Virus record (IMG/VR): IMGVR_UViG_3300027861_004487
Coordinates: 1 to 25,945 of that record
From: a virus
DNA: 25,945 bases
Strand: one strand, 5' to 3'
Both the position numbers and the translations under genes were made by a program. This document shows, piece after piece, positions 4,278 to 25,945 of the stretch (its first letter is position 1; the number at the start of each line of letters is the position of its first letter). The notes under the pieces were generated by a model that saw nothing but the letters and a program-made list of their open reading frames with translations, was not told the DNA's origin and made no database searches.

Positions 4278-4739
4278 ATGGAAAATGAACAACTAATTGA
4301 ATTCTTACAAGAAGACTTGAAGAATGAAAGAAAACATCTGTCAGCGTACACGCAATATGCTGTTCAGTTAACAGGGTTACATAGAGAAGAGCTTCGAGAG
4401 TTTTGTGAGACTCAGGCTGCTGATGAACTAAAGCATGTTACTGAATTTTCAGAGCTTATAGTTCATCTAGGCGGAACCCCAGATGTTAGAACAAACCCGT
4501 ACCCTTCTGGCTTAACCTGCCCCACTTCGATTGTCAAAGCAATTGTAGAGATGGAAGATGAAGTCGCAGATAATTATGCGAAGCGTCTCAAGTCAACTGA
4601 AGACTATGATAATGCCGCTACAGCATACACGCATCTTTTCTACGAAGAGCAGCTTTTAGATTCTTGGAAAACTGCTAGAGAAGTTCAGAAAATGATCCCT
4701 AAAAAAACATGCGAAACTAAAGCCCGATCAGGTAACTGA
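4278..4739 (+). CDS. Ferritin-like four-helix protein (bacterioferritin/Dps superfamily)
   Basis: This 153-residue, mostly helical protein has ferritin-like di-iron spacing: E17 (KNERKH), E50 and H53 (ADELKHV), E91/E93 (EMEDE) and E123/E124 (FYEEQLLDSW). Family members bind and oxidise iron, or use a di-iron site for other redox chemistry. Helix D has E-E-Q-L-L-D where a bacterioferritin would have ExxH, so the last histidine ligand appears replaced. The start has a clear AAAGGGA site and follows the M28 stop by 3 bases. It could store iron in the infected cell, scavenge peroxide, or be a repurposed structural helix bundle. The superfamily call is firm and the activity is open. Confidence 0.82.
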   Translation: MENEQLIEFLQEDLKNERKHLSAYTQYAVQLTGLHREELREFCETQAADELKHVTEFSELIVHLGGTPDVRTNPYPSGLTCPTSIVKAIVEMEDEVADNYAKRLKSTEDYDNAATAYTHLFYEEQLLDSWKTAREVQKMIPKKTCETKARSGN

Positions 4740-7941: not shown

Positions 7942-8436
7942 TTATTCTTTCAAAGTTGATGTGCAAAATGGGCACTTGCTTGCTTTGTAGTGTATCTCTT
8001 CTTGACACTCTGGGCAAGATATGGTTTGAATGCATCTTATTTTTACATCTTCTTTCAATAAAGGAAACATGACTTTCCTGTAAACGACATACAAAATAAT
8101 AGAAATTAGCACAAAGTCTAAGAAAGAGCCAGCGAATTGACCTAGTTCAAAAGTCATTCCTTCAAGAGGGGAAAGACTGTAATCCCTCCAGTCTTCGCCA
8201 GTTTTCCCAACGACATAATTCACCATTGGCATGATCAAATTTTGGGAAATAGAACTTACAACCTTTTGAAATGCCGCTCCAAGTATGAAGGCAATCGCCA
8301 TTTCGATCATTCTGCCTTTGAATGCGAACTTCTTCCACTGCTTTAGTTCTTCTTCTCCAACGACGTGCTCGATACCATCTTCGATGGTATCTTTCGCTTT
8401 TTTTATGTTAGCTCTATTTATAAATTCTTTTTTCAT
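7942..8436 (-). CDS. mscL: MscL large-conductance mechanosensitive channel with C-terminal zinc ribbon
   Basis: The core matches MscL: KFAFKGRMIEMAIAFILGAAF leads into TM1 (about 43-72), ending KVVSSISQNLIMPMVNYVVG. A periplasmic loop follows, and then TM2 (about 99-122, FLDFVLISIILYVVYRKV). MscL pentamers open under membrane tension. The usual cytoplasmic helical bundle is replaced by a zinc ribbon (C141-x2-C144, C155-x2-C158: CPECQEE ... KCPFC). The ATG at 8436 is preferred over an in-frame TTG at 8484, which would overlap the divergent gene's start. A channel in a phage could relieve osmotic stress, help lysis, or let DNA or ions cross. The family is clear and the phage role is inference. 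Confidence 0.9.
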   Translation of the reverse strand: MKKEFINRANIKKAKDTIEDGIEHVVGEEELKQWKKFAFKGRMIEMAIAFILGAAFQKVVSSISQNLIMPMVNYVVGKTGEDWRDYSLSPLEGMTFELGQFAGSFLDFVLISIILYVVYRKVMFPLLKEDVKIRCIQTISCPECQEEIHYKASKCPFCTSTLKE

Positions 8437-8483
8437 ATTATTACCAAATACATACTCATGAATATCTATCCAAGGAGTCTGCA

Positions 8484-9932
8484 ATGTTTGATTATATTAA
8501 ATCAATGTTTTCTAGAGAGGTTGGTGCTTTATCTGCAAATCAACTTTGGTATCCGTTTAATGATCCAACTACACCAAGTTTAGGTTCTTTAATTAGTCCA
8601 AAAATTCCACCTAAAAAACTAAACTTTCAAGTGTTTGGGTATAAAAAAGGAAATTTCAAAAAAGGATCAAAAGACCATCAGGCATCTTGCTGTGTTGAAA
8701 CAATGTGCAGAACGGTTGAACTCTCACAAAGAAATATTAAAAGCTTTAGAAAGCCTCTTGACAAATGGGCAGCAACTAAAAGTTTGATTGTCAAGCCAAG
8801 AGCGGGAAATGATTTCAATGCTTGGTATGATCGCAAGAGTTTGAGCTTTTTCTACGATCAGGATTCTAAAACTAAGAAAATGATTTTTACCGCTGACTCT
8901 GTGGATATAATTGCACATGAGGCTGGCCATGCCATTTTGGATGCAATGAGGCCGGACTTTTGGAGCGTACCTGCTTTGGAAATTTGGTCATTCCATGAAG
9001 CCTTCGCAGACATAATTGCTATACTCACATTAATGGAATCAGATGAAGTTTTAGAACATGCGTTGAAAGAGACAGATGGAGATCTGGGAAAAGACAATGT
9101 TATAAGTAAGTTGGCGGAAGAAATGGGCAGTGCTATATTCAACCTTACAGGCGGTAAAGGCGGATATAGTCATGCATACCTAAGAAAAGCAAATAACACA
9201 TTTAAATATCAAGATCCTAGAAACCTTCCAAAACAAGCACCAAACAATAAGCTTGCCGCTGAGTGTCATTCGTTTGGAAGAGTTTTCTTAGGAGTGTGGT
9301 ATGAAATTATGGTTAGAATTTTTAACCATCTTAAACAAAACAAATCAGATATTGAATCTTTAAAAGAAGCTAGAGATGTAATGAGTCTTTATTTATTTAA
9401 GGCAATTCCAAGAACCCCTAGAACCTCAAAATACTACCAAGCAATAGCTAAATCAATGATGGACGTGGATCGCCAAGCTGGTAGTCCGTATGGAAAAATA
9501 ATGAGAAAGGTCTTTGAAGGAAGAAAAATACTTACACAAGAAGTTAAAATGTTATCAAAAGATAATGAAGGTCTAAATTGGAAAGATTTCAAAAAAGGAG
9601 TCGAGCCAGAAGATAATGTTTTCAAACATAAAGATGGACTTACTTATATTTCCAAGTCAAATCACGTTGTAAAATTAAGCGACTATGTAGTTAGCGGTTT
9701 GTCTGGCGACAATCCTTTGTTTGATGTAGAGATTGAATTAGCTCAAGATGGTTTGTATGAATTTGATAAATCTGGAAACTTAATTGAGGAAATAGTTCCA
9801 AATGGAACAGAGGCAATGGATGATGCTGTATTTTGTCTAAATGTAATACAAGATGAAAACTTAATAAACAAAGCTTGGGATAGTATGTGGGAAGTGAAAT
9901 CAGGCAAATTAGAAAGAATATACATGCAATGA
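8484..9932 (+). CDS. Gluzincin zinc metallopeptidase (thermolysin-like motif)
   Basis: HEAGH at 145-149 supplies two zinc ligands and the catalytic Glu. A second helix at 170-178 (FHEAFADII) supplies the third ligand, E172, and the stabilising D176, as in thermolysin-type enzymes (HExxH plus ExxxD). The N-terminal 60 residues are Pro/Lys-rich, and no signal peptide is visible, so it probably acts inside the cell or is carried in the virion. The C-terminal half (about 300-482) is not recognised. The start has AAGGAG (8472-8477) seven bases upstream. Candidate roles are processing of phage proteins or cleavage of host targets. It overlaps the next gene by ATGA. Confidence 0.85.
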   Translation: MFDYIKSMFSREVGALSANQLWYPFNDPTTPSLGSLISPKIPPKKLNFQVFGYKKGNFKKGSKDHQASCCVETMCRTVELSQRNIKSFRKPLDKWAATKSLIVKPRAGNDFNAWYDRKSLSFFYDQDSKTKKMIFTADSVDIIAHEAGHAILDAMRPDFWSVPALEIWSFHEAFADIIAILTLMESDEVLEHALKETDGDLGKDNVISKLAEEMGSAIFNLTGGKGGYSHAYLRKANNTFKYQDPRNLPKQAPNNKLAAECHSFGRVFLGVWYEIMVRIFNHLKQNKSDIESLKEARDVMSLYLFKAIPRTPRTSKYYQAIAKSMMDVDRQAGSPYGKIMRKVFEGRKILTQEVKMLSKDNEGLNWKDFKKGVEPEDNVFKHKDGLTYISKSNHVVKLSDYVVSGLSGDNPLFDVEIELAQDGLYEFDKSGNLIEEIVPNGTEAMDDAVFCLNVIQDENLINKAWDSMWEVKSGKLERIYMQ

Positions 9933-12830: not shown

Positions 12831-13778
12831 ATGAAAAAAACATTTTTACTAGTGTTGTCATTTATGTTTTGTTTCATGACGTTCTTCCACAGTCATGATT
12901 CACACGTTGGCGATCCTATAGTTATGTGGGGTGCATCAGATAACGATGTTGCCCGTATGCCTCTTGTACAAGATGGAAACCCACGTACTGCATCGTTAAA
13001 AACCGATCAGCCGCTTGCTCAAAGAGGAATTGAGTTTCGACGTTTTTTATCCCCTTCTGTAAAAATCAGAGTATCGAATGCTTCAGGGTCTGGAACAATT
13101 GTCTATTACGACAAGGTAACAAAAGAAGCCTACGTGGCTAGTTGTGGACACCTCTGGAGCGGGACTCGTTCATCTGCTGATCTTAGGAGTAATCCTGTAA
13201 GCTGTGAGATTGTTGTATGGTATCACAATAATGTTAAATTAAAAAGACCAAAAGTATATAAGGCACAAGTGTTGTTTTGGTCAAATGACAGAGGATACGA
13301 CAGCAGTCTTCTTAAATTTAAAGCGGACTGGGAGCCTTCTTATTTTCCAATTGCGCCAAAATATCACATAATACCAGAAAACTCTCATCGACATTCTACT
13401 GGGTGCGACAACGGGAGCGAAGTGGCACATTATGATGTAGTGATAGATGAATTTCGAGGTGGCGATTTAATTACCAAATATAATTCACCGAGGCCAGGTC
13501 GAAGTGGTGGCGGTCTTTTAGATGATGCTGGATATTATATCGGAACTTGTTGGGGAACCTCTAATTATAATGGATCTGGAATTGGGTACTTTACCCCATT
13601 GAGTGCAATCCATAAAATGTTCAACCAAAATGGATATGGCTGGTTACTTGATATTAATCCTTTTGGTTCTGCAAGAGAAATTAGAATCCTAGACAGATCT
13701 GATTTCGATAGAAGATTCCCAAAAAGTTATATACCAATTCCTTCAGGACGAATGAGTGTTCCGCTAGGTTTGAGATAG
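12831..13778 (+). CDS. Exported trypsin-like serine protease
   Basis: A signal peptide (MKKTFLLVLSFMFCFMTFF) is followed by a chymotrypsin-fold domain. The likely catalytic triad is H107 (VASCGHLW), D157 (GYDSSLLKF) and S225 in PGRSGGGLL, where the canonical form is GDSGGP. The order and spacing fit S1-type bacterial proteases. The ATG at 12831 is five bases from AAAGGAG; the GTG at 12825 overlaps that site and is rejected. The enzyme should act in the periplasm or outside the cell, perhaps trimming surface receptors or degrading envelope proteins at lysis. The residues after about 265 are not recognised. Confidence 0.83.
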   Translation: MKKTFLLVLSFMFCFMTFFHSHDSHVGDPIVMWGASDNDVARMPLVQDGNPRTASLKTDQPLAQRGIEFRRFLSPSVKIRVSNASGSGTIVYYDKVTKEAYVASCGHLWSGTRSSADLRSNPVSCEIVVWYHNNVKLKRPKVYKAQVLFWSNDRGYDSSLLKFKADWEPSYFPIAPKYHIIPENSHRHSTGCDNGSEVAHYDVVIDEFRGGDLITKYNSPRPGRSGGGLLDDAGYYIGTCWGTSNYNGSGIGYFTPLSAIHKMFNQNGYGWLLDINPFGSAREIRILDRSDFDRRFPKSYIPIPSGRMSVPLGLR

Positions 13779-13779
13779 G

Positions 13780-14556
13780 TCATGTTAATCTATAAAACGG
13801 GCATATGGTTCTATAGTCGCAAAACTTGCAGTGATCTTGCACGTTTCCCCATGCTTTATTTTCAGGGGTTCGTTTAATTTGATCATATGCATAGATCAGT
13901 TCTTCATGAGCTTCGATAAGTGATTGTTCAGAAAACTTGCATCCAATCAAAGATTTGTCTTCTAAGTAATACAAAGCAGCACGAATTTTGTTTGCTGGTA
14001 TTCCTTTTTCCAATTGAACAACTCTGGCATATGCTCGCAATTGCAAGTCTGTTCGAATTGTTCTTAGATTTTTCCTATATCTTCCCTTTTTAGTTGTTTT
14101 GTAATCAATAATTATCCATTCATCACCTTTAGGAATCAACCTGTCGATGAATCCCTTGATCATTTTGTTGTTTGGAGGATCGATGTCAAATTCAAATTTA
14201 TATTCTATCTCTCCCTCTGTTCCAAGTTGATCAGTCAAATACTGAATTGATTCCATATGTTTGGGAAATCTCTTTTTATATTCCTTGGGCAATGTAGGAG
14301 CAAAAATTTCATTCCCATCTTTATCTTGGTCGAAAGGTATTTTTCCTTCCAGTATATCTTGCGATATCTTCTCTAAAGAAACTTTTGCTTCTTTTTCGAC
14401 ATACAACTCTGCAATCTTGTGGACCATTGATCCGTATGTGAAGAAAAAAGGCTCCTCAACTCCAGTGTCAATTTTTAGATGATATTTATACTTGTATTGT
14501 TGCTGACATTTATTCCACACATCTTTTCGGGAAACGCTTATGTGGTTGATATCCAT
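13780..14556 (-). CDS. Cas4/RecB-type PD-(D/E)XK nuclease with Fe-S cysteines
   Basis: The start at 14556 (MDINHISVSRKDVWNKCQQQ) has GGAAG eight bases upstream and gives the classic S-x-S-x-x-x-x-x-x-C-x-x-x-Y opening of this family. All key motifs are present: C17, H46 (GSMVHKIAE), D138 (GFIDRL), D151 and K153 (IIDYKTTK), Q172/Y176 (LQLRAY), and C243, C246, C252 near the end (CKFCDYRTIC). The four cysteines should hold a 4Fe-4S cluster, and the active site should cut single-stranded DNA ends. There is no CRISPR locus here, so a role in phage recombination or replication is more likely. It is divergent from the primase. Confidence 0.88.
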   Translation of the reverse strand: MDINHISVSRKDVWNKCQQQYKYKYHLKIDTGVEEPFFFTYGSMVHKIAELYVEKEAKVSLEKISQDILEGKIPFDQDKDGNEIFAPTLPKEYKKRFPKHMESIQYLTDQLGTEGEIEYKFEFDIDPPNNKMIKGFIDRLIPKGDEWIIIDYKTTKKGRYRKNLRTIRTDLQLRAYARVVQLEKGIPANKIRAALYYLEDKSLIGCKFSEQSLIEAHEELIYAYDQIKRTPENKAWGNVQDHCKFCDYRTICPFYRLT

Positions 14557-14645
14557 TGAGAAACTTCCGTTGACTAAAGAAAATGTTTTTGTTAATTTAT
14601 TCTTCAAGTAAAAAAATAGCAATACCAATTTGCAGAGTGGTCTTA

Positions 14646-15713
14646 ATGTCGGTCGATTTTGATAAATTTCTAGCTTGGGCAGAATCCCGTTGGGGTGGCG
14701 ATGTGATAGTAAAGGGTGAAGAAATTCGCTTGAATTCTCCTTTTACTGAAGATTACAAACATAAGATGTGGTGTAATTGCTCTGGCGGTAAGAAAAAAAG
14801 AAATAATGGAGTCTTTCACTGTTGGAAAACAGAAGAACGAGGAACTTTAATTTCTCTTGTCATGTTTAGAGATGGATGCTCATACGACGAAGCTTTGGAG
14901 ATATTGGGAGGAAGCGACACGTTTTTAGCAGAGGCAGAATTAAAGTTAGAAGAAATATTTAATAATTCAAATCAAGAAATTGCCCCTGTGGCGGAAGAGA
15001 AAGAGTTAACTTTGTCCCTTCCGCCAAATTCATATAAAATCAAAGACCTTCCAGAAAGCGATTTTTATCGAATAAATGCAGAGATGCACCTATCTGAAAG
15101 GAAGATCCCCACAGATGGACTTCTGGTGTGCATTGGCGGCAAGATTGGCGACATTGACTACACTAATAGAATCATTATACCTTATTATGATAAGTATGGG
15201 GATTTAATTTACTTCAATGCTCGATACTTAGGAAGCGAGAAAAGAGTTCCGAAGTATATGGGACCTCCTAAAGAACTTGGAATCGGAAAGTCAGATATTT
15301 TATATTTTCCAGCTTGGCCTGAGCAAGGATCAAAAATACATTTAACAGAGGGCGAATTGGATGCGAAAGTTTTAAGAATGTCTGGTATGTGGTCTGGTGC
15401 TTTTGGGGGAAAGGAAATTAGCGATAAGCATGCCCAGATTTTAAGAGACTTAGAGTCAAAAGTTGTCCTATGTTTGGATAACGATAGGGCTGGAAAAGAC
15501 TCTTTACCAGAAATCGGTTTATCTTGCGTAAGGGGTGGAATTTCTGTTGAATATGCATTCCCACCGGAAGGATATAAAGACTGGAATCAAATGTTGGAAA
15601 AGTTAAATGCAAAAATTATAAGTGCCTACATCAAGAAAAGCACCGAACCATTTGATGTTTTTGAATGGGAAATTAAAAGCGGTAAAATCGCTAAAAACTT
15701 AGACACAGAATAA
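14646..15713 (+). CDS. DnaG-type Toprim DNA primase, atypical zinc site
   Basis: The N-terminus resembles a primase zinc-binding domain: residues 27-75 contain IRLNSPFTEDYKHKMWCNCS and FHCWKTEERGTLISLV, with C43, C45, H58 and C59 instead of a regular CHC2 set. The catalytic Toprim domain shows E235 (LTEGELDAKV) and D278-x-D280-x2-G (CLDNDRAGKDS). The protein is 355 residues with no visible helicase part, so it is a stand-alone primase that makes RNA primers at the phage replication fork. I chose the ATG at 14646; the frame is open upstream but would overlap the divergent nuclease start. Confidence 0.86.
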   Translation: MSVDFDKFLAWAESRWGGDVIVKGEEIRLNSPFTEDYKHKMWCNCSGGKKKRNNGVFHCWKTEERGTLISLVMFRDGCSYDEALEILGGSDTFLAEAELKLEEIFNNSNQEIAPVAEEKELTLSLPPNSYKIKDLPESDFYRINAEMHLSERKIPTDGLLVCIGGKIGDIDYTNRIIIPYYDKYGDLIYFNARYLGSEKRVPKYMGPPKELGIGKSDILYFPAWPEQGSKIHLTEGELDAKVLRMSGMWSGAFGGKEISDKHAQILRDLESKVVLCLDNDRAGKDSLPEIGLSCVRGGISVEYAFPPEGYKDWNQMLEKLNAKIISAYIKKSTEPFDVFEWEIKSGKIAKNLDTE

Positions 15714-15733
15714 AAAACTAATTCTTAATTAAC

Positions 15734-15739
15734 TAGTTT
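15734..15739 (+). promoter_or_regulatory. -10-like TAGTTT before the 15745 gene
   Basis: TAGTTT is followed by five bases and the ATG; the upstream 31-base gap has no Shine-Dalgarno. This is a weaker member of the leaderless set. Confidence 0.3.
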
Positions 15740-15744
15740 ATATC

Positions 15745-16155
15745 ATGAAACATTTAGAGAGATTTGTTGGAAAAGTATGCACGGTTTTTACTGTAGGCAT
15801 CAATAGAGATTTCAAACAAGAAAATCCAAAAACATATCCAAAGCCTTTGTATGTTTATTTTATGGGTGCTATAGAATTTGTGAACGAACATGGAATCATG
15901 ATGCAACAAGTGACAACTGGTTTGTCCACTTTTGTCTTCATGAATAATGTCGTAAGCATTTCTGAGGAAGAAGTCCTAGACCCAGAGAACGAAAACGATG
16001 CTGAAATGATCAAAAAATATAAAGAAGACGCCGAACAGATCAAAAAACAATATAGCACTCAAGGAAAAGATGATGCTCAAGCCGAATCTTCTGAATATTT
16101 AAATGTAGATTCCATGAGTGACTTATCTGACATGATACAGAAAGATATAAAATGA
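15745..16155 (+). CDS. Hypothetical protein (136 aa)
   Basis: The first 75 residues look like a small beta domain (ERFVGKVCTVFTVGINRD, then LYVYFMGAIEFVNEHGIMM, then LSTFVFMNNVVSISEEEVL), similar in character to SH3- or Sm-like barrels. The rest is an acidic, Gln/Lys-rich helix and a Ser/Asp tail. No family is recognised. The gene has no Shine-Dalgarno. Its stop overlaps the bisphosphatase start as ATGA, so the two are translationally coupled, but no functional link can be read from the sequence. Confidence 0.65.
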   Translation: MKHLERFVGKVCTVFTVGINRDFKQENPKTYPKPLYVYFMGAIEFVNEHGIMMQQVTTGLSTFVFMNNVVSISEEEVLDPENENDAEMIKKYKEDAEQIKKQYSTQGKDDAQAESSEYLNVDSMSDLSDMIQKDIK

Positions 16156-17102
16156 AAAACCATCACTTAGATATAATAAGGGCGACAGAGGCAGCGGCAA
16201 TATCTGCTGCCGAATGGGTTGGTCGAGGCAATAAAGAGTTAGCAGACAAAGCTGCAACCGATGCAATGCGTTCAAGATTGAACGATATAGATTTTCGTGC
16301 GCAAATAGCTATAGGCGAAGGAATCAAAGATGGTTCTTTCGGGCTTTTTGAAGGAGATCTGGTCGGAGCCGCATATGGGGATTGTCCCTCTGATGCGGAA
16401 TATGATATTGCAGTCGATCCGATTGAGGGAACAACCCCCACGGCTAAAGGTGGGTACGAAGCAATGGCCGTTCTTGCTATGGGGAATGTAGGATCACTGT
16501 ACAAAACAGATGTTTTTTACATGGACAAGATTGCCGTGGGTCCCAAGGTGGCAGCAAAGGCTCAGATTGACCTCAAAAACCCTGCAAGTGCAAATGTTGG
16601 GATGGTTGCTGCTGCTTTGGGGAAATCGCCAGAGCATGTTACCGTATGTGTTCTAGACCGAGAAAGAACAAAGCCACTTGTTGGAGAACTGAGGAAAATA
16701 GGTTGCCGGATCAAGTTTATTAGTGACTGCGATGTGACGGCCTGTATTGCCACCTGTGTGCCCGATAGCGGGATTGATATGTATTGGAGCATCGGTGGAG
16801 CACCAGAGGCTGTGATAGCCGCCTCAGCGATGAAATGCATGGGAGGTTTCCTGCAATGTAGGGAAGTCGAGGAGTCAGTACAAAAATGTGGTGATTTTCA
16901 AGGAATTTTGACACATGCATCTGATTCGATGCATATAAATGACCTCGCTGAAGGCGAGGTCATGTTTGCTGCCACTGGGATTACGGATGGGAAATTCTTG
17001 AAAGGCGTTAGATTTACATCCAATGGCCCAGTCACTAGCTCAGTATCTATGAGATCAGAAAGCGGGACAGTCAGATGGTTGACGACAGAACACGGAAATT
17101 AA
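16152..17102 (+). CDS. glpX: Class II fructose-1,6-bisphosphatase (GlpX family)
   Basis: This 316-residue protein carries the GlpX signature throughout: ATEAAAISAAEWVGRGNKEL near the N-terminus, then IAIGEGIKDG, VDPIEGTTPTAKGGY and SIGGAPEAVIAA. Expected metal ligands align as D32, E56, D89, E92 and E219. The family removes the 1-phosphate of fructose-1,6-bisphosphate (sedoheptulose-1,7-bisphosphate in some members), in gluconeogenesis and the Calvin cycle. The usual E-A-P-M-L-Y-I-G-E segment is replaced by DGSFGLFEGDL, and the length is slightly short. Two 60-base samples give about 48% and 53% GC, against 33% in the preceding gene, suggesting a more recent host origin. It is a candidate auxiliary metabolic gene. 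Confidence 0.92.
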   Translation: MKNHHLDIIRATEAAAISAAEWVGRGNKELADKAATDAMRSRLNDIDFRAQIAIGEGIKDGSFGLFEGDLVGAAYGDCPSDAEYDIAVDPIEGTTPTAKGGYEAMAVLAMGNVGSLYKTDVFYMDKIAVGPKVAAKAQIDLKNPASANVGMVAAALGKSPEHVTVCVLDRERTKPLVGELRKIGCRIKFISDCDVTACIATCVPDSGIDMYWSIGGAPEAVIAASAMKCMGGFLQCREVEESVQKCGDFQGILTHASDSMHINDLAEGEVMFAATGITDGKFLKGVRFTSNGPVTSSVSMRSESGTVRWLTTEHGN

Positions 17103-17104
17103 AT

Positions 17105-18805
17105 TTAGCGATATAGTTTTTCTTTTAGGTATTTAACTCTTTCGTTGAGCTTAATTTCGCTTAAATTAATTCTGTCTGAACTCATACGAATCCCACAAGA
17201 CAAAAGTTTTTTGTAATACTCCAGCTTATGATGCGGATTTAATTGTTCTAGTATTTTTGTAGCTTTATAATGATCTAAGCCCGCTCCTTCAAATTTGTAT
17301 GAAGAAACTGCACCTTTGCTCGGTCCTTGAGAGAGTTCAACTGGCTCACGATCAACTGGAATTTCTCTAAGTTTGTTTTCGACCTGTGACTTGTCCATTT
17401 TCAAAATTTCTTCAGGAGAGAGTTCACCGCTGAAGCCGTGTTTAGAAATTAAATCTGCCATGACTTGAATATGCAATTTAAGTTGTTGATCCTTTTTTAA
17501 TTCCTCAAGTTTTTTACTTTCCTTAGTTTCATCGTTGTGTTGCTTAAGTCGTTTTGTATAAAAAGATTTTAGCTCTTCGTCTTCTGAATTTGCTATATTC
17601 TTTTTCCACGATCTTAGACTGTAGATATCTATTAAAGGGTCGCTGTCTCCTAATACATGGGGCATTAGCCCTATAAATTCTTTAGATTTCTCATTAGTAA
17701 AGACGTTGGCCGTTTTGCTTGAAACGTCAGCATTGTCGCCTTCTTTGCCAGACTCGTCTCCACCAGAAGGAGGACTGATTGGCCTTACTTTGCTTACAAC
17801 GCCCGTGGGCGTGTCGTCCCCTTTACCAGCATCCACATCATCAGCAGTGGGTGCTGACGAAGAGGACATTTCAGCAGAATCTGCCTCGGGAGATTTCTTT
17901 TTATTAATCAATCTTTGAATTATTCCCTTTCCTTGGTTACCGAACGGCGGCAGGGTTCGAGTACCTTTTTTCAGTATCCAAGTGTTTTTATTTTTTACGA
18001 ACTCCCATCCTTCCATATCAATTTCATCCGTATTGATTTTATTGATTAGAGTTTCCATGGCTTCATCTAAATTAGTTAATGGATCTATTCCTAATTGACT
18101 CAAGAAAACGTTTAATGTTTCAAGGTTGGTTTTCCTGCCCGCTCCTCTAGAGTTGCTGCCTTTTTGTCTAGCTTCGGCCACAGCTTGCCTGAAGTGACTT
18201 GCTATTTTTTCTTTGAGAGAATTGATTAGATCATCATAATCGGTCACTACAGCTTCTGTCAAAAATTGATTTGAAAGTTGGTCAACTTTTTCTGATATTT
18301 GCTTATTTAAGAATATGCATTCATCTAGAGTTAGCCTTTGCTCGGCTTTATACCCTTGCCAACTGGGATTCTCAGGATGGTCGCCGTGCCACAGCTTTCT
18401 AAAAAATCCCTTCATTCCATGTTTAAACCATGGAAGCTTTGAATTCGGATCATATCCAGATCTTGATTGTTGGACAGGCGACACACCGCCGCTCATGCCA
18501 CTTGGACTTGATGCCCGACCAAAGCCATATTCAGGTGTTTCAGGTTTTGGAGCAAATGTCTTTTTAAGATCTTCAGAATCAAATTCTGGCTGAGTGGCCT
18601 TAGTTCCAGAAGGCAATGCTGGGGCATCACCGGATTTTGGGAGTTTAGGGATGGGAGATGGAGTATCATTTTTTTGAGGATGAAGCTCATCACTAGATGC
18701 CTTTACAGGCTCTCTTTTGTGTACTTGAGCAATAAACTCATCGACTTCTATTCCAATGTCATTCAGTAAACTGTCTAAAATTTCTTCTATTCTGTCTTTA
18801 GCCAT
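17105..18805 (-). CDS. Large modular protein of unknown function (566 aa)
   Basis: A short acidic helix (1-30) is followed by a Pro/Ser/Gly-rich disordered stretch (about 32-125). Next come a Trp/His-rich segment (LPWFKHGMKGFFRKLWHGDH) and a helical domain to about 300. A second disordered Ser/Asp/Gly linker spans about 310-370, and the helical, Lys/Glu-rich C-terminal half ends in SEIKLNERVKYLKEKLYR. No catalytic motif or membrane segment is visible. The layout of folded blocks joined by disordered linkers suits a scaffold or an injected virion protein; this is inference. GGAGTG precedes the ATG, and its stop is two bases from that of the convergent bisphosphatase gene. Confidence 0.75.
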   Translation of the reverse strand: MAKDRIEEILDSLLNDIGIEVDEFIAQVHKREPVKASSDELHPQKNDTPSPIPKLPKSGDAPALPSGTKATQPEFDSEDLKKTFAPKPETPEYGFGRASSPSGMSGGVSPVQQSRSGYDPNSKLPWFKHGMKGFFRKLWHGDHPENPSWQGYKAEQRLTLDECIFLNKQISEKVDQLSNQFLTEAVVTDYDDLINSLKEKIASHFRQAVAEARQKGSNSRGAGRKTNLETLNVFLSQLGIDPLTNLDEAMETLINKINTDEIDMEGWEFVKNKNTWILKKGTRTLPPFGNQGKGIIQRLINKKKSPEADSAEMSSSSAPTADDVDAGKGDDTPTGVVSKVRPISPPSGGDESGKEGDNADVSSKTANVFTNEKSKEFIGLMPHVLGDSDPLIDIYSLRSWKKNIANSEDEELKSFYTKRLKQHNDETKESKKLEELKKDQQLKLHIQVMADLISKHGFSGELSPEEILKMDKSQVENKLREIPVDREPVELSQGPSKGAVSSYKFEGAGLDHYKATKILEQLNPHHKLEYYKKLLSCGIRMSSDRINLSEIKLNERVKYLKEKLYR

Positions 18806-19158: not shown

Positions 19159-20175
19159 CTAACCTTGTGCAGCTTCTGCTGCCACAAGGCATCCTCGTGC
19201 TACTGAATAAAGGGGGTCGCTAGGCCGAATAACCTCCCCAATATCAATGCCTATATTTGATGACTTAAGCACATCACTAAACATAGTATCAAATCCAGGC
19301 GGAGAACTTGTTCCACCTGCAATTACAATGTCAATCGGATGATCAGCACGAGCACTTTTGCCCGCTTCTTCAATGCCGTTCTTGATTCCTGTAACTGTCT
19401 TTTGAATCATGATTTCATACTGTGCCTTGATAGCTCTTTGAACTAGCAAGTCTGAATCTTCATTTAAATCTACTTTCATTTTTTCTTTATTGATATAAGT
19501 AGGACTTTCGCCTGTTGCCCTAGCTGCCATTTTGTCGATCCAGTCTCCACTATTAACGAGAGCGAATTCAAAAATTGGAGCACCATAGATTGCAAAGCAA
19601 AGATTTACCATGCCTGCGCCGAACGAAATTCCAATTCCAGTATATGCTGTCTTTTTCAGTTCAGCATATACTAGTGCCAATGCTTCATTAATTGGGTGAG
19701 CTTCAACAACTTTTCCTGTTTCATCTTCAAACGCATTGAATACAGCTTCTAAAACTTTTGAGTGGTAATCTGCATCTGTATCTTGATTAATAGCATTTGC
19801 GGGCACACTGTAATAGAGTTGCTGCTTATCTTCGTCGAGTTCGTCAAGAAGACTGTGCATCATTATACTCATGATTTGTTGAGCATACTTTTCTTTTGGA
19901 TTCAAGCAGCCATCTTTCATTGGTCGCTTTAGTTCAATGTCGTTCATTGTGTATGCGATATCTACAGCGGCTTCTCCTAAAGCGTAGGCAATCCCTGCCT
20001 CAGTTCTTTCAATTAGAGGAACGCCTGCGTTCTTCATCATGTTGAACACAAATCTATTTTCTAAAGGCATTTCAATGAATGCATTTACCTCTCTTTTATG
20101 CGAGAAGTCTTTGTTTTCGTCTCTTCTGCAACAAACAAGGTTGTATGTCCCACAATCAAATCCTAATCCTGCCAT
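19159..20175 (-). CDS. MreB/actin-superfamily filament protein
   Basis: This 338-residue protein has the actin/Hsp70 nucleotide fold. Phosphate 1 is GLGFDCGTYNLV (3-14), and an MreB-like RPMKDGCLNP is at 84-93. Connect 1 is AHPINEALALVYA (159-171), phosphate 2 is GIGISFGAGMVNLCF (180-194), adenosine binding is IVIAGGTSSPPGF (283-295), and connect 2 is around ARGCLVAAEA (326-335). Such proteins polymerise with ATP into filaments that shape cells or move DNA or virions. RPMKDG favours MreB-like over ParM. The ATG directly follows the stop of the 85-residue partner gene, so the two are co-expressed. Confidence 0.85.
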   Translation of the reverse strand: MAGLGFDCGTYNLVCCRRDENKDFSHKREVNAFIEMPLENRFVFNMMKNAGVPLIERTEAGIAYALGEAAVDIAYTMNDIELKRPMKDGCLNPKEKYAQQIMSIMMHSLLDELDEDKQQLYYSVPANAINQDTDADYHSKVLEAVFNAFEDETGKVVEAHPINEALALVYAELKKTAYTGIGISFGAGMVNLCFAIYGAPIFEFALVNSGDWIDKMAARATGESPTYINKEKMKVDLNEDSDLLVQRAIKAQYEIMIQKTVTGIKNGIEEAGKSARADHPIDIVIAGGTSSPPGFDTMFSDVLKSSNIGIDIGEVIRPSDPLYSVARGCLVAAEAAQG

Positions 20176-20465: not shown

Positions 20466-21431
20466 TTAAATTATGGGACATTTTTTTAACATTTGATCTA
20501 CGCCATTTAGAAGCATATCCACTGATATTTTAGAGCAACAAGGTTTAATTGGGTTTTTTCTTTCCAGCGAGCAGTTAGGCCAGTTATAGCAGGGGCCGCA
20601 AGGCCAATCGTCATTATCCCTGTGTTTCTGAACTAGTGTGAAATCATAGTGCTTCCCGTATACCTTTCCATCTGCAAAAGTGAATATTCCCATTAAAGGT
20701 TTTCCAATTCCTCCTGCAAAGTGAAAAGCAGCCGTATCCACACTAATTACATAATCTGCTGCGTTTAGAATACCCATCCATTCTTTAATTTTAAGACCGT
20801 AAATTTGTGGTGTGTCTTTCGGGAATCCGTCTATAGGGCGAAGATGAAGTCCAACAACAAACGTGCCCCTATCTCTTAATCCCTTAATTAAACCTTCCTG
20901 CTGCCAATCCTGTAGATTCTTAGTAAGCATCGCTGATATAGGGTTCAGCACCACTACAGGAGACTTACCATCGTGTCCTGCTTGTCTTATTTTTTCTTTG
21001 CCAAAATTTATTGTATCTTCGTCAAGATTTATATGCATATTGTGATTTTGAAGCTCTACGCCGCAATGGTTGGCCCAAATGTCGCTTCTGTTTTTGTTAG
21101 ATAGAGGTGCGTGCCTCATCTCATGTCTAGTGCAGGCACTTGTCGTGTTGTAATGAATTGTATAATCATAAGGATTCACCTTTCTCGAATCCAAAATCTC
21201 ATCAATAAAAGGATGATCTCTCAAAGCCTCGTGATACATGGTGGGGCATGCAAAAACAATCTTCGCATCGGGCATTATCCTGTTAAAGTCCTCAAACATC
21301 TGTCTATGCATTAAGATGTCGCCCAAACCACCTGTTTCACGCATTATCAATATTTTGTTTTTTCTTTCATGAAATTCTTTTATTGACAATGATTTCTTTA
21401 TAGGATCGTTTCTTCTTATGATTCTTGGCAT
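20466..21431 (-). CDS. GT9-type glycosyltransferase (heptosyltransferase-like)
   Basis: A GT-B layout is visible. The N-terminal domain has MRETGGLGDILMHRQMFEDF (30-49), and the C-terminal domain has the sugar-nucleotide signature ADYVISVDTAAFHFAGGIGK (225-244) followed by PLMGIFT. D232 and H237 sit where GT9 enzymes bind the donor. These enzymes add heptose or another sugar to LPS core or similar acceptors. The region 278-299 has five cysteines (CGPCYNWPNC ... CC), unusual for the family and possibly a metal site. The gene lacks a Shine-Dalgarno and has TAATTT five bases before its ATG. The likely role is altering the host or phage surface. Confidence 0.86.
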   Translation of the reverse strand: MPRIIRRNDPIKKSLSIKEFHERKNKILIMRETGGLGDILMHRQMFEDFNRIMPDAKIVFACPTMYHEALRDHPFIDEILDSRKVNPYDYTIHYNTTSACTRHEMRHAPLSNKNRSDIWANHCGVELQNHNMHINLDEDTINFGKEKIRQAGHDGKSPVVVLNPISAMLTKNLQDWQQEGLIKGLRDRGTFVVGLHLRPIDGFPKDTPQIYGLKIKEWMGILNAADYVISVDTAAFHFAGGIGKPLMGIFTFADGKVYGKHYDFTLVQKHRDNDDWPCGPCYNWPNCSLERKNPIKPCCSKISVDMLLNGVDQMLKKCPII

Positions 21432-21544: not shown

Positions 21545-22126
21545 TTAGCTATCGCAAGAAGCTCGCACAGAAAGAATAATTTGAACATCGCTTTCTGGAT
21601 TTCCAGATGCACTGTTGTCAATTTCAATCAAGCTAATTGAAAGATCGCCAGCATTAAATACCTGAGTATCACCTGCGACCAAATCAAACGCTCCATCTAC
21701 AATGCCATTTAATCGAATTTTTACAGAACCAGTTGCGCCATTGTTAGTAATTTGGGCAAATACAGCATATCCGCCAGTGTCTCCATTAATATCCGCTTGA
21801 TTAGCGGCATATGCACTTCCTGCGGCGGCAGTGATGTCATAAACTTTTGGATATGAATTTTCACTTGCAATATCACTGTAAATGCTTCCATCGTCTGTAA
21901 CTATTTCGATGAATGAATCACTCAGTGGAACTTGAGGATACGCAAATCTTTTCCAGTAGTTACAATCTGTGAAAGTTTCTCCATCTTTCAGTAAGCGATT
22001 GATTCTGTTTGGACCCATAACATATATTGTTCTTTGGATCGATGTTGCGAATTCCTGACCCGTTTTTGGGTTGATATCCAGTTGTCCTTGAATATCATTG
22101 TTTAGGTTTACTCTAAATACACTCAT
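21545..22126 (-). CDS. Putative virion structural protein (193 aa)
   Basis: The protein is Asn/Asp/Gly/Ala-rich with strongly alternating hydrophobic strands (GSVKIRLNGIVDGAFDLVAG and DLSISLIEIDNSASGNPESD), no Lys-rich tail, and no membrane segment. This is typical of beta-rich capsid decoration or tail proteins. The gene stands alone between an AT-rich promoter region and a strong terminator, with a GGAGG ribosome site, an arrangement that suggests abundant late expression. No family is recognised; the second half resembles an immunoglobulin-like or jelly-roll domain in general character. Confidence 0.66.
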   Translation of the reverse strand: MSVFRVNLNNDIQGQLDINPKTGQEFATSIQRTIYVMGPNRINRLLKDGETFTDCNYWKRFAYPQVPLSDSFIEIVTDDGSIYSDIASENSYPKVYDITAAAGSAYAANQADINGDTGGYAVFAQITNNGATGSVKIRLNGIVDGAFDLVAGDTQVFNAGDLSISLIEIDNSASGNPESDVQIILSVRASCDS

Positions 22127-22200: not shown

Positions 22201-22524
22201 TTATTTTAATTGACTCTCTAAAAAGGACAATTCAGATTCTTTTAAAAACTCAATTATAGGATCATCTTTCATGTTAAACGTTAATTCACGAATGTGCGAA
22301 AAGTTCCTTTTGTTCTCTTGTATGTTTGAATATTTCAATGTTTTTTCTTCGGAATTTGATACAAATTGATCTCTTAGGCACACATAAACCTCTGTGGATG
22401 GGAATGTTTTTTCAAGAATTGGACGTAGATACTTCAACTGCTTAATTGTTTTTTCATTAGGCCCAAAATAACATATGCAATATCTATTTTTAATTTTTGC
22501 ATAATCAGGAAATCTTATTGACAT
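22201..22524 (-). CDS. Hypothetical protein (107 aa)
   Basis: The ATG at 22524 is chosen over an in-frame TTG at 22536. The product starts MSIRFPDYAKIKNRYCICYF and continues with a Rossmann-like alternation: strand CICYFGPNE, helix KQLKYLRPILEKTF, strand TEVYVCLRD, then a Glu/Lys-rich helix. It could be a small nucleotide- or sugar-processing fragment, but the family is not recognised. Its start codon overlaps the divergent start at 22523 (CATG), and no clear ribosome site is visible. Confidence 0.6.
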   Translation of the reverse strand: MSIRFPDYAKIKNRYCICYFGPNEKTIKQLKYLRPILEKTFPSTEVYVCLRDQFVSNSEEKTLKYSNIQENKRNFSHIRELTFNMKDDPIIEFLKESELSFLESQLK

Positions 22525-22747
22525 GAAAAACCCCAATAAAAAAAATATAGAAGGATATCAAACTCTCAACTCATTTTTTGAACAATTTGGAGACAGAGAC
22601 GTTTATACTATGATAGTATTAGAAGAGGTATTTAAGGAAATTTATGGGACAGAAGAACATTTACATATATCTGGCGAGGCGGGACAGGAAGGGCGTGCAG
22701 GTTCTCTACATGTTTCAAGGGACGAATCGCAAGATACATCCAAATAA
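22523..22747 (+). CDS. Small hypothetical protein (74 aa), overlapped by the next gene
   Basis: A CAGGAAATC about ten bases before the ATG at 22523 could act as ribosome site. The first half (KNIEGYQTLNSFFEQFGDRD, then VYTMIVLEEVFKEIYG) looks like a real helical protein. The last 32 residues (from GTEEHLHISG) share DNA with the start of the 22644 gene in another frame and look less natural. It may be a complete small gene, or the front part of a longer protein joined to the 22644 frame by a frameshift. Confidence 0.5.
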   Translation: MKNPNKKNIEGYQTLNSFFEQFGDRDVYTMIVLEEVFKEIYGTEEHLHISGEAGQEGRAGSLHVSRDESQDTSK

Positions 22748-23042
22748 AATAGAAAGTATTAGTGAGTTTAACCTGCCGGTTAAAATTCAAAACTCTATTC
22801 AAAAAAGCATCACAGATAACCGGATGCTTTGGGAAGCTTGGGCTGAAAGCTCTGATTCATTTCAAGATTTAAAAGAATCTCTAAAGAAAAGAGGGTATAA
22901 AAACTTACCAATTAGCTCTTTCCCAAAATTTAAAGAAAGTATTTCCTCGAAAATTTCATTTGGCAAGAAAGAGCAAGGAAGAGATTTTAATTTTAGGAAT
23001 TTAAAAGAAACAAAAACTATGTTGAGAAGAAAAAAAAATTAA
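22644..23042 (+). CDS. Hypothetical protein (132 aa)
   Basis: The ATG has AAGGAA at good spacing. The first 30 residues overlap the previous gene by 104 bases in a different frame. The body (IHPNKIESISEFNLPVKIQN, then LWEAWAESSDSFQDLKESLK) is helical and basic and ends in a Lys/Arg-rich tail (KTMLRRKKN), suggesting nucleic-acid or membrane-surface contact. No family is recognised. It converges on the 23039 gene with a 4-base overlap. Confidence 0.6.
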   Translation: MGQKNIYIYLARRDRKGVQVLYMFQGTNRKIHPNKIESISEFNLPVKIQNSIQKSITDNRMLWEAWAESSDSFQDLKESLKKRGYKNLPISSFPKFKESISSKISFGKKEQGRDFNFRNLKETKTMLRRKKN

Positions 23043-23335
23043 GACCTTCTAACGTAAGACCTGTGAATATAAAAATCTCCTAGGTCTGTTTCAATTAAAA
23101 AGTGCTTATCCTGCGATTCTTTTATAATTCCCCCTTTTTCAAGAAATTCTTGAGCCACCTCGTAAGCATCTCCTTCATTTGGTTCCATCTTTGAAATTAA
23201 TTTTCTAACTCCAATTTTTGATTCAACAAATATACCATTGAATGATTTTCTTTTAAATTTTTGCGAGTCTTCTTCGGGCTTATCTTTTATCCACTTTTTA
23301 AAATCATCAAAGTTGAAAAATGAATTTGTTTGCAT
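23039..23335 (-). CDS. Hypothetical protein (98 aa)
   Basis: The N-terminal half is helical and charged (FNFDDFKKWIKDKPEEDSQK), and the C-terminal half is beta-prone (KHFLIETDLGDFYIHRSYVR). There is no signal peptide or membrane segment. The ATG lies just after the stop of the 23340 gene, within AGGTAATAAAATG, so the two are co-translated. I do not recognise the family. Confidence 0.62.
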   Translation of the reverse strand: MQTNSFFNFDDFKKWIKDKPEEDSQKFKRKSFNGIFVESKIGVRKLISKMEPNEGDAYEVAQEFLEKGGIIKESQDKHFLIETDLGDFYIHRSYVRRS

Positions 23336-23339
23336 TTTA

Positions 23340-24188
23340 TTACCTAAAAAAATCTTTAACTTCTTCTTCTGTTTTTATATATGTTGCATTACTCAACTTT
23401 GGGCCACTAGAATAATCAGATACTTCTATATTTTCTTTTTTAAACCATTGCAGCAAAGCGTCTATGATTTGATTTGATTTGATTTGTTGTTCATACGCCC
23501 ACAGACCATTCTCCAATTCAATTGACGATGGACGTTCTTGGTTGAAAGAATCGTCGCAGCAAAATAGCATTAATTTATCGACTTTAAAGTTACAAGCTAA
23601 ATTTATACAGGCACAAATTACATTTCTGTAGTCGTCTATTGTTGTTCCAAGATTGTCGATCTTACAAGAGAAGTTTTCATTTTTCACAGGGTTGAATAAA
23701 ATCTTTTGACCCCTGTACGACTCTAGAAATTCTGGATTTGTTCTCATAGATGCAATACAATTTGGGTAATATCTATGTTTATCTGGAAGGCTTAATAAGC
23801 ACTCTTCATAAGGATTGGACGTTACATAGTAGTTGATTCTTCTCCGCATAGCTTGCGGGCATTCCTCTCCAACTAAGTCCCAGTACTTTAAAGCACCATT
23901 TGCAGCCAATATGCAAACGTCGTTTGGAACTTCAGATAAAATCTTTTGCTTACTTTTAAAGTCGTATCCATCTGAAACTATAATTATATTTTTAAATACA
24001 TTTGCATTGTTTTCAAGAATGGGATATTTTTTTCTTTTGTTTTTATATTCATTGTTGAAAATCAATGAATAATCCTCGCTTCTGAACGAGTTAATATCCA
24101 AAGGTGAAGAATTCTTAAAAGGATCTCTAACCCACGTTCCATCCGTTGAAAGAACATATTGGTTCGATTTATATTTTTTTATTCTCAT
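23340..24188 (-). CDS. DUF115-like Rossmann protein, possible glycosyltransferase (282 aa)
   Basis: Two segments resemble the DUF115/MptE-like fold of motility-associated sugar-transfer proteins: FKNIIIVSDGYDFKSKQKIL with ILAANGALKYWDLVGEECPQ, and later INLACNFKVDKLMLFCCDDS. In that family a Rossmann strand, N-x-A-L-K-Y and a D-D end the cofactor pocket. The match is partial and from memory, and the GPSL-type loop is replaced by SDGYDF. The ATG overlaps the stop of the repeat-protein gene (TAATG), so the two are coupled; decoration of the repeat protein with sugar is a natural guess but unproven. Confidence 0.5.
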   Translation of the reverse strand: MRIKKYKSNQYVLSTDGTWVRDPFKNSSPLDINSFRSEDYSLIFNNEYKNKRKKYPILENNANVFKNIIIVSDGYDFKSKQKILSEVPNDVCILAANGALKYWDLVGEECPQAMRRRINYYVTSNPYEECLLSLPDKHRYYPNCIASMRTNPEFLESYRGQKILFNPVKNENFSCKIDNLGTTIDDYRNVICACINLACNFKVDKLMLFCCDDSFNQERPSSIELENGLWAYEQQIKSNQIIDALLQWFKKENIEVSDYSSGPKLSNATYIKTEEEVKDFFR

Positions 24189-25945
24189 TAGTTACAAGGT
24201 ACAAATCTAAAACATGGACCATCAGTCCCATCTCCATCTCCGAGCACGTTACTGGTTGTAAACTCTATTGGAACAGGACCGCCTTTATAAACTAGTGGAA
24301 CCTCTAAATTTTCTGGTGCTTTAATTGTGATTTCGCTAGGCAGACTTCCCTTCAGTTCTATTGAGTCTGGAACGCCAACAACTTGTATTTCGGAAGGAAT
24401 TTGTGATCCATCTATTACTATCTGAGATGGGAAATTTTCTGGAACTATAAGACGAATTTCTTCTGGCAAACTAGACTCCAATTTTATTACGTCTGGTAAT
24501 TCATGCACTATTTCAACCGAATTTGGAACTTCCGTTCCTACAATTTCTATTTGTCTAGGAATAGAGTCAACCCCAGTTATTCTTATGTTTGGAATATCTG
24601 GGACATCAAGGGCTATACTCTTAGGAAGATCGTGCAAAATTCTCACATTTGGGATCTTAGGGGCAATTATCTTTATCTCAGATGGTATTCCAATATCTGC
24701 GGTTTGCACCTCTAGTAAATCGTCTCCAAATGAATCAACAAAACTGTCATCAAAAGATTGCGATCTGAACGGAGTTGCACTTGCTCCAGGACACTCAACA
24801 GCGACAGTTACAGATGCTGTAATTGTCGGAACTGGACCCCAGTTCACATCTACTGAAGGAACTGGACCCCAGTTCACATTTATATCTGGAATGTCAGAGG
24901 AGACGGTTATTACTGATGGTATATCGCAACCTTCAATACTTATTGTTGTTGGTATATCAGGACTTTCAACACTTATTGTTGTTGGGATGCTGTCAACAAC
25001 GGTTATTGTTGTTGGGATATCATCATATACGCTTATTGTTGTTGGGATGTCACCATCAATACTTATTGTTGTTGGAATATCATCATATACGCTTATTGTT
25101 GTTGGGATGCTATCAACAACGGTTATTTGGATTGGGATATCATCATATACGCTTATTGTTGTTGGGATATCATCAATAACGGTTATTTGGATTGGGATAT
25201 CATCAGTAACACTTATTGTTGTTGGGATGTCACCAGTAATACTTATTGTTGTTGGGATGCTGTCAACAACGGTTATTGTTGTTGGGATGTCACCAGTAAT
25301 ACTTATTGTTGTTGGGATGTCACCAGTAATACTTATTACTGGTGGTATATCAGGACTTTCAATACTTATTGTTGTTGGTATATCAGGACTTTCAATACTT
25401 ATTGTTGTTGGTATATCGCAACCTTCAATACTTATTGTTGTTGGTATATCAGGACTTTCAATACTTATTACTGGTGGTATATCAGGACTTTCAATACTTA
25501 TTACTGGTGGTATATCAGGACTTTCAATACTTATTACTGTTGGTATATCAGGACTTTCAATACTTATTACTGTTGGTATATCAGGACTTTCAATACTTAT
25601 TACTGTTGGTATATCATCGTAGACGCTTATTATTGTTGGGATGTCAGGGCTTTCAATACTTATTACTGTTGGGATGTCAGCTACAACACTTATTACTGTT
25701 GGTATATCATCTAAAACAAGAATTACGTCGGGGATGTCATCTAAAATTGTTATTTCAGATGGAATTGGCGGACCAGTAATCTCAATAGGACTGAACGATG
25801 GACCAGTAATTTCAATAGGACTAAACGATGGTGCTGGACCAAACTCAATAGGACTAAACGATGGTGCTGGGCCAAACTCAATAGGACTAAACGATGGTGC
25901 TGGGCCAAACTCAATAGGACTAAACGATGGTGCTGGGCCAAACTC
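24188..25945 (-). CDS. Repeat protein with I-P-T-T-I units, N-terminus beyond right edge
   Basis: One minus-strand frame is open from 24188 to the window end, at least 585 residues. At the upstream end are about four 11-residue FGPAPSFSPIE units (33-bp DNA repeats). Next come about 27 units of 10 or 11 residues of the form IPTTISVYDD or IPTVISIESPD, two WGPVP units, and a short spacer with DDSFVDSFGDDLLEV. About 130 residues of diverged IPxxIxI units follow, and the protein ends in GPCFRFVPCN. Pro and alternating Ile/Val fit a beta-solenoid or fibre. A GTG at 24877 is not the true start. A fibre, adhesin or tail-surface role is inference. Confidence 0.85.
   Translation of the reverse strand, partial: EFGPAPSFSPIEFGPAPSFSPIEFGPAPSFSPIEFGPAPSFSPIEITGPSFSPIEITGPPIPSEITILDDIPDVILVLDDIPTVISVVADIPTVISIESPDIPTIISVYDDIPTVISIESPDIPTVISIESPDIPTVISIESPDIPPVISIESPDIPPVISIESPDIPTTISIEGCDIPTTISIESPDIPTTISIESPDIPPVISITGDIPTTISITGDIPTTITVVDSIPTTISITGDIPTTISVTDDIPIQITVIDDIPTTISVYDDIPIQITVVDSIPTTISVYDDIPTTISIDGDIPTTISVYDDIPTTITVVDSIPTTISVESPDIPTTISIEGCDIPSVITVSSDIPDINVNWGPVPSVDVNWGPVPTITASVTVAVECPGASATPFRSQSFDDSFVDSFGDDLLEVQTADIGIPSEIKIIAPKIPNVRILHDLPKSIALDVPDIPNIRITGVDSIPRQIEIVGTEVPNSVEIVHELPDVIKLESSLPEEIRLIVPENFPSQIVIDGSQIPSEIQVVGVPDSIELKGSLPSEITIKAPENLEVPLVYKGGPVPIEFTTSNVLGDGDGTDGPCFRFVPCN
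24895..25640 (-). repeat. Array of 30- and 33-bp in-frame tandem repeats
   Basis: About 27 units encode IPTTI(S/T) decapeptides or IP(T/P)(T/V)ISIESPD undecapeptides. Identical neighbours (for example three IPTVISIESPD in a row) indicate recent amplification. All units keep frame. Confidence 0.9.
25800..25945 (-). repeat. 33-bp tandem repeats encoding FGPAPSFSPIE
   Basis: At least four near-perfect 33-bp units run to the window edge, differing mainly by GGGCC versus GGACC. The array continues outside the window. Confidence 0.92.

Follow-up and report, generated by a model that had tools for sequence, protein, structure and literature searches.

A probable tail-fibre protein from uncultured huge phages, containing a length-variable array of short isoleucine-proline units

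The window analysed here, the whole of an IMG/VR record of 25,945 bases, is a phage fragment whose right edge is crossed by an open reading frame of 585 codons on the minus strand (24188-25945), correctly placed by an earlier sequence-only reading. This frame is the 3' part of a tail-fibre-like gene, which has full-gene homologues in three related loci (L005, L006 and L002) and a probable N-terminal half in a fourth (L046); roughly its first 350 codons lie outside the window. From the edge inwards, it comprises four 33-bp units encoding (E)FGPAPSFSPI, three exact and one near-exact (25814-25945), at which assemblies break; an array in which about 30 I-P units, each 10 or 11 residues long, follow the consensus IPTTISIxxD with one predicted beta strand apiece (24833-25765); and a conserved C-terminal domain of about 214 residues with irregular I-P units (24191-24832; DIGIPSEI...VYKGGPVPIEF). 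A large antisense frame (24585-25622, plus strand) passes through the same repeats and has no support of its own.

Downstream on the minus strand follow an MptE/DUF115-like (Maf-type) protein of 282 residues (23340-24188; PF01973, E 3e-6, its 27.4 bits lying under the Pfam cut-off of 34.6) that recurs in 86 related loci, two small proteins of about 100 and 110 residues conserved in the module by synteny (23039-23335 and 22201-22536), a 193-residue protein conserved in 77 related loci (21545-22126), a GT9-like protein of heptosyltransferase type (20466-21431; PF01075, E 7e-4, and synteny) and, at the end of the conserved module, an actin-like protein (19159-20175; Pfam Volactin, PF25216, E 8e-67; 69 related loci). 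A T4-type large terminase (279-2114, minus strand) serves as lineage indicator. Elsewhere the fragment carries a GT8-family glycosyltransferase (2362-3159, plus strand; PF01501, E 5e-26), a ferritin-like protein (4278-4739, plus) beside an M28 peptidase (3162-4274, plus), an MscL-type mechanosensitive channel (7942-8484, minus; PF01741, E 4e-21) and a phage-borne GlpX-type fructose-1,6-bisphosphatase (16152-17102, plus; PF03320, E 4e-106).

The IPxxI(S/T) unit that had been read from the sequence at nearly every 30 or 33 bases is confirmed by 27 IPxxI[ST] motifs in the 585-residue protein, spaced by 10 (14 times), 11 (11 times) or, once, 20 residues, when shuffled versions hold 0.6 on average and 5 at most. 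Self-identity of the array at lags of 10 and 11 is 0.42, against 0.14 in shuffles (maximum 0.20), and TRF gives periods of 30, 33 and 90 bp over 24917-25945. It had also been proposed that near-identical units in the middle grade into diverged ones towards the C-terminus. Neighbours among units 11-15 and 17-18 are indeed near-identical, but the one-way gradient did not stand: the pattern is patchy, with units 6-10 on the N-terminal side diverged as well and several of units 20-32 having exact counterparts at distant positions. Nor are the C-terminal repeats those of a decaying array, since 24191-24832 forms a separate domain kept between phages; that of L005 is 66% identical to the window's and 46% to that of L006.

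Isoleucine and valine together make up about 31% of the window array, serine and threonine 26%, and lysine and arginine are almost absent, with hydrophobic residues recurring regularly at unit positions 1, 5 and 7. Between units, synonymous change exceeds replacement change (pN/pS = 0.74). The array might instead be a flexible spacer, disordered or polyproline-like, that separates two conserved virion domains and whose repeats drift except for the I-P pattern. Such a spacer would fit the proline in each unit, a pN/pS just mildly below 1 and the P/T/S-rich linkers that occupy the array position in L113, L114 and L098. Such a content of isoleucine and valine and such regular hydrophobic positions are however unusual for disorder, and within the window protein the confidence of the AF2 model peaks in the array. 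We regard a spacer of this kind as quite improbable.

Two further contigs, from two other metagenomes, represent the same phage with 99.99-100% identity, and both also stop in the array. The gene is a frequent breaking point of assemblies, which end inside it in 26 of the 96 N-terminal loci and 13 of the 32 C-terminal loci. These breaks, together with the exact copies among the edge units, could be taken for an artefact of assembly or slippage on repetitive, AT-rich DNA that has no folded product, an eventuality that the sequence-only reading had itself raised. As far as the existence of the gene is concerned, it is contradicted by the same array in independent assemblies (100% and 99.99% identical), by about 70 loci in which the gene is uninterrupted and its ends are conserved, by the synonymous bias and by a unit plan kept though the sequence differs. 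We consider an artefact extremely improbable, while the copy number at the window edge may differ.

Extension past the edge had been suggested as a way to the N-terminus, and a 24.5-kb contig from another metagenome, that of L046, terminates in copies identical to the 33-bp unit of the window. In a scan of 2.9 million viral contigs, from which the window's own record was possibly left out, this unit was confined to that contig and the L003 record. Because its contig ends in a unit shared by so few others, L046 very probably carries the N-terminal half of the window's protein, the proposed join resting on identical repeats and not on a spanning read. The full protein would count about 930 residues if the edge units overlap fully, and the gap may hold more units.

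Profile scans detected the C-terminal domain in 36 loci and the N-terminal domain in 103 (80 kept), and the family is encoded in about 100 viral loci, including 12 records of 225-595 kb. Each of these large records holds one strong copy, the PKD genes upstream giving weaker matches, and 11 of the 12 encode a terminase related to that of the window (44-61% identical). A second, shorter terminase-like frame was noted at 129905-130621 (minus strand) in G009, the record behind L086, where the full one lies at 115310-117025. Uninterrupted genes, present in 70 loci (some redundant), measure 605-3049 codons with a median of 861. Outside IMG/VR, the 595-kb uncultured phage LR756511.1 was the only match among 50,697 phage records, and one more was found on a contig in a Neisseriaceae metagenome bin, with upstream tail genes too. 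A host-encoded adhesin was rejected, since a search of bacteria and archaea (about 85,000 genomes) gave a single match, which lies on a contig bearing the same phage genes. A tape-measure protein was rejected too, as the sequence has no helical pattern and the gene stands in the wrong position. The gene belongs to one lineage of huge phages, uncultured and equipped with a T4-type terminase, and the generic adhesin first envisaged is refined to a tail-module protein of these phages. For the moraphage lineage, which was also considered, a search of the text showed no link (PMC12619734).

The family shares a common layout, in which an anchor domain of about 150 residues and a PKD domain precede the I/F-P array, itself followed by a C-terminal domain of about 210 residues. 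The N-terminal 300 residues are conserved across the family and the C-terminal 210, to about the same degree, in most members; the array between them is not. The PKD profile matches 25 of 66 members at E <= 0.01 (best 6e-5). In the AF2 model of the first 380 residues of L046 (built on 66 sequences), residues 30-110 mostly have a pLDDT near or above 90 and residues 168-242 adopt a PKD fold, and Foldseek matched the model to PKD domains with a probability of 1.00. By hhalign, the N-terminus of the repeat protein is homologous to those of both upstream PKD proteins (E 5e-19 and 4e-11), the three being consecutive in the large records, and this homology suggests that the three neighbouring genes probably have a docking domain in common. 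In L113-L115, RCC1/kelch propellers, not an I-P array, come after the N-terminal domain, as expected of an exchangeable distal module. Across L113-L115 and L090 together, the place of the I-P array behind this N-terminal domain is taken by RCC1 and kelch propellers or by proline-rich stretches.

The array itself is highly variable. The strongest unit lag varies between lineages, being 10, 11, 12 or 13 residues (9 in one array), and the units read as differently as DDIPTTISV, ITITPVTIPTA, FGPAPTIPTSIT, FNWGKAPKVEGAS and FDCISFCHPPS. Arrays rich in cysteine, with FDCISFC-type units, were observed in L002 (6714-8738) and in L038-L041, the latter with about 10% Cys; their composition suggests disulfide or metal cross-links. 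Units are often closer within an array than between phages (9.8 versus 7.4 of 10 residues in L006, 9.6 versus 6.3 in L116 and 9.1 versus 8.0 in the window; L005 and L106 are exceptions), which is a sign of repeated turnover. The clearest case is provided by L052 and L053, whose proteins are identical except for one extra 11-residue unit (33 bp) between flanks that are 100% and 99.8% identical. Because the extra stretch is one base off its neighbour, and so not an exact copy, it argues against a collapse of exact copies; an assembly error would be possible. Through turnover of whole units the shaft is lengthened, shortened and restyled from one phage lineage to another, as the comparison of unit number across related genomes indicates, with both ends kept. 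The prediction that length evolves by unit gain and loss is borne out by this pair and by full homologues of 605-3049 residues. That expansion is ongoing stood between lineages and in this one close pair, but no difference in unit number appeared among the three contigs of the window's phage.

The neighbourhood of the gene is that of a tail module, ordered as a gpI-like baseplate gene, two PKD proteins, the repeat protein, the Maf/MptE-like, 193-residue and GT9-like proteins and the actin-like protein. Profiles of the neighbouring genes detect counterparts in 60-101 of 115 loci, mostly with the gene order preserved, absences often falling beyond contig ends; the gpI relative is found in 60 loci and the two PKD proteins in 101. 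In LR756511.1, a Tail_P2_I protein (2e-10) and a Phage_tail_fib protein (6e-10) lie upstream of the repeat gene, followed by a 189-residue protein, an opposite-strand gene, a 224-residue protein, PKD-type proteins of 331 and 647 residues, the repeat protein, an MptE-like protein, small proteins, a 194-residue protein, a GT9-like protein and Volactin. PHROG 'baseplate wedge' matches of three members may stem from P/T/S-rich linkers and were set aside. Near the phage tail genes of L005, thiolase, FadB-like and acyl-CoA-dehydrogenase genes form a beta-oxidation set (13623-18190, minus strand), either phage cargo or the mark of a chimeric contig.

The suggested coupling of the repeat gene to a possible sugar-transfer gene is upheld to the extent that neighbours of sugar-transfer type are conserved across loci. 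The array could be mainly a Ser/Thr-rich scaffold glycosylated by its Maf/MptE-like, GT9-like and GT2-looking neighbours, giving a sugar-coated fibre for shielding or adhesion, a reading that is compatible with a tail fibre. Putative sugar-transfer genes flank the fibre genes in most loci, the GT9-like protein of L006 passes Pfam's cut-off (PF01075, E 4e-6) and a quarter of the window array is serine or threonine. Against this, PF01973 matches fall under the curated cut-off, as do the 23 bits of the MptE-like homologues of L006 and L002, that of L005 having no match; a PDB search found no relative of the MptE-like protein, and the 189-residue protein of LR756511.1 has the look of a GT2 sugar transferase without Pfam support. 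Several arrays flanked by the same genes (L038-L041, L027) moreover contain only 12-15% serine and threonine, and other virion or host targets are equally possible. That the array is mainly such a scaffold appears unlikely on balance.

Searches of Pfam, PHROGs and PDB sequences with the window protein and its homologues returned no credible relative of the array, in agreement with the view that its unit belongs to no named family, and the titles, abstracts and passages searched, a scope that excludes preprints and many journals, hold no description of the I/F-P repeat. Among rejected matches, those to leucine-rich repeats were low-scoring and paired one hydrophobic repeat with another, as did an Achromobacter N4-like 'putative tail fiber protein' (20% identity, E 2e-4), which was not used; the BFVD matches, with an uncharacterised Megavirus protein as the best (E 2e-5), were of low TM and uninformative.

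In a monomer model of the window protein by AF2 (45 sequences), each unit between residues 60 and 345 forms one strand of 4-6 residues, with a pLDDT of mostly 63-77; that of the C-terminal domain is mostly below 55, near 50 or lower. The beta-solenoid proposed from the sequence is thus upheld in its one predicted strand per unit and not in its fold, pLDDT being about 70 and no solved fold matching. A single-chain beta-solenoid with two or three units per coil, the fibre being monomeric or built of side-by-side solenoids, would account for the regularity of the monomer model and for weak Foldseek matches that are themselves single-chain solenoids (leucine-rich repeats, left-handed beta-helices of GlmU/LpxA). 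None of the matches to this array model of moderate confidence reached E <= 0.001, however, and TM-scores are near 0.1. Nor do the arrays have a family-wide super-period of two or three units, a lag of one unit usually being the strongest, and a single-unit indel would shift the register of all later coils. A solenoid is therefore somewhat unlikely in our estimation. An intertwined trimer would fit better on these indirect grounds: the lack of a common super-period is expected if each unit is one equivalent strand, and together with the single-unit indel of L052/L053 it is more easily accommodated by an intertwined oligomer. We advance a trimeric intertwined beta-helix as a tentative model of the shaft. 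The usual distance between stacked beta strands is 0.48 nm. At this rise per unit, the 35 units visible in the window would span about 17 nm, and the longest array, with roughly 150 units in L006, about 70 nm.

With gene layout, synteny, shared N-termini, unit turnover and beta propensity all computed directly, we consider the repeat protein of these uncultured huge phages to be, most likely, a tail fibre or an appendage attached to the baseplate, with a beta shaft of variable length; its N-terminus and tail-module context uphold the fibre-type protein first proposed. Its N-terminal part, a beta-rich domain with short helices and a PKD domain, would dock it to the baseplate, the two upstream PKD genes carrying the same docking domain. 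Each unit of 10-13 residues would contribute one short beta strand and a proline turn, and the equivalence of units would allow whole units to be added, lost or swapped in frame, changing the length and surface of the shaft, which the conserved C-terminal domain would cap or tip. A role in adsorption, with sugar decoration by the neighbouring genes, may be envisaged. Two observations count against a fibre: the C-terminal domain is conserved, when many tail fibres have a fast-evolving receptor-binding tip, and AF2 confidence is moderate in the array and poor in the C-terminal domain, with no solved structure matching the array. More speculatively, the family could represent a new class of beta-fibre, intertwined and probably trimeric, whose strand is the unit and which tolerates differing unit lengths as well as the gain or loss of one unit; unit turnover would then tune the length while the ends and the sugar-transfer module stay fixed.

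Most tail proteins of huge phages lack annotation, and the hosts of these phages are mostly unknown. The gene offers a conserved, recognisable marker of one huge-phage lineage (about 100 loci, 12 large records) and points to its adsorption apparatus. If the shaft has one strand per unit, its sequence code (unit length, polar positions) would be readable across many natural units, and fibre length could be counted from metagenomic sequences and put to laboratory test. The array is also a possible source of very regular beta fibres for protein design.

A tail fibre with a repetitive shaft follows a known plan, while the family and its unit appear absent from Pfam, PHROGs, the PDB and the literature as searched. 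The triple-stranded beta-helix of T4 gp5 is built on an eight-residue unit, VxGxxxxx (PMC4576200). Like it, the array has one short (predicted) strand per unit, equivalent units and a length set by their number; unlike it, its units have 10-13 residues with [IVLF]P at the turn, no VxG pattern occurs in the window units, and the best lag is 10-13 instead of eight in nearly all arrays. Triple beta-spiral shafts, as in the adenovirus fibre and PRD1 P5, consist of units of about 15 residues with two strands each. They too are fibre shafts of short repeats with a Pro/Gly turn, whereas the repeat protein has one predicted strand in 10-13 residues, and no unit of about 15 residues was found. The only PDB sequence match with E < 1e-3, chain A of 9lc0 ('60 kDa protein'), is a short repeat rich in I, V and N; its aligned stretch holds no I-P unit, and the low score, probably driven by composition, led us to discard it as a relative. 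A further comparison, from outside IMG/VR, is the unannotated record LR756511.1, with a full homologue of 674 residues, the same gene order and a terminase 52% identical, which differs by an array replaced by the Cys-rich 11-residue unit FDCISFCHPPS. In contractile-tailed phages, fibre or appendage genes such as P2 gpH and those of the T4 long tail fibres lie downstream of gpI. The repeat protein is unlike these in that no sequence relation was found, its shaft is made of I/F-P units of 10-13 residues, its C-terminal domain is conserved instead of hypervariable and no chaperone gene was recognised. It resembles them in following a gpI-like baseplate gene and a tail-collar-fibre N-terminus, and in joining an N-terminal anchor, a long repetitive shaft and a C-terminal domain, with distal modules exchanged in some relatives.
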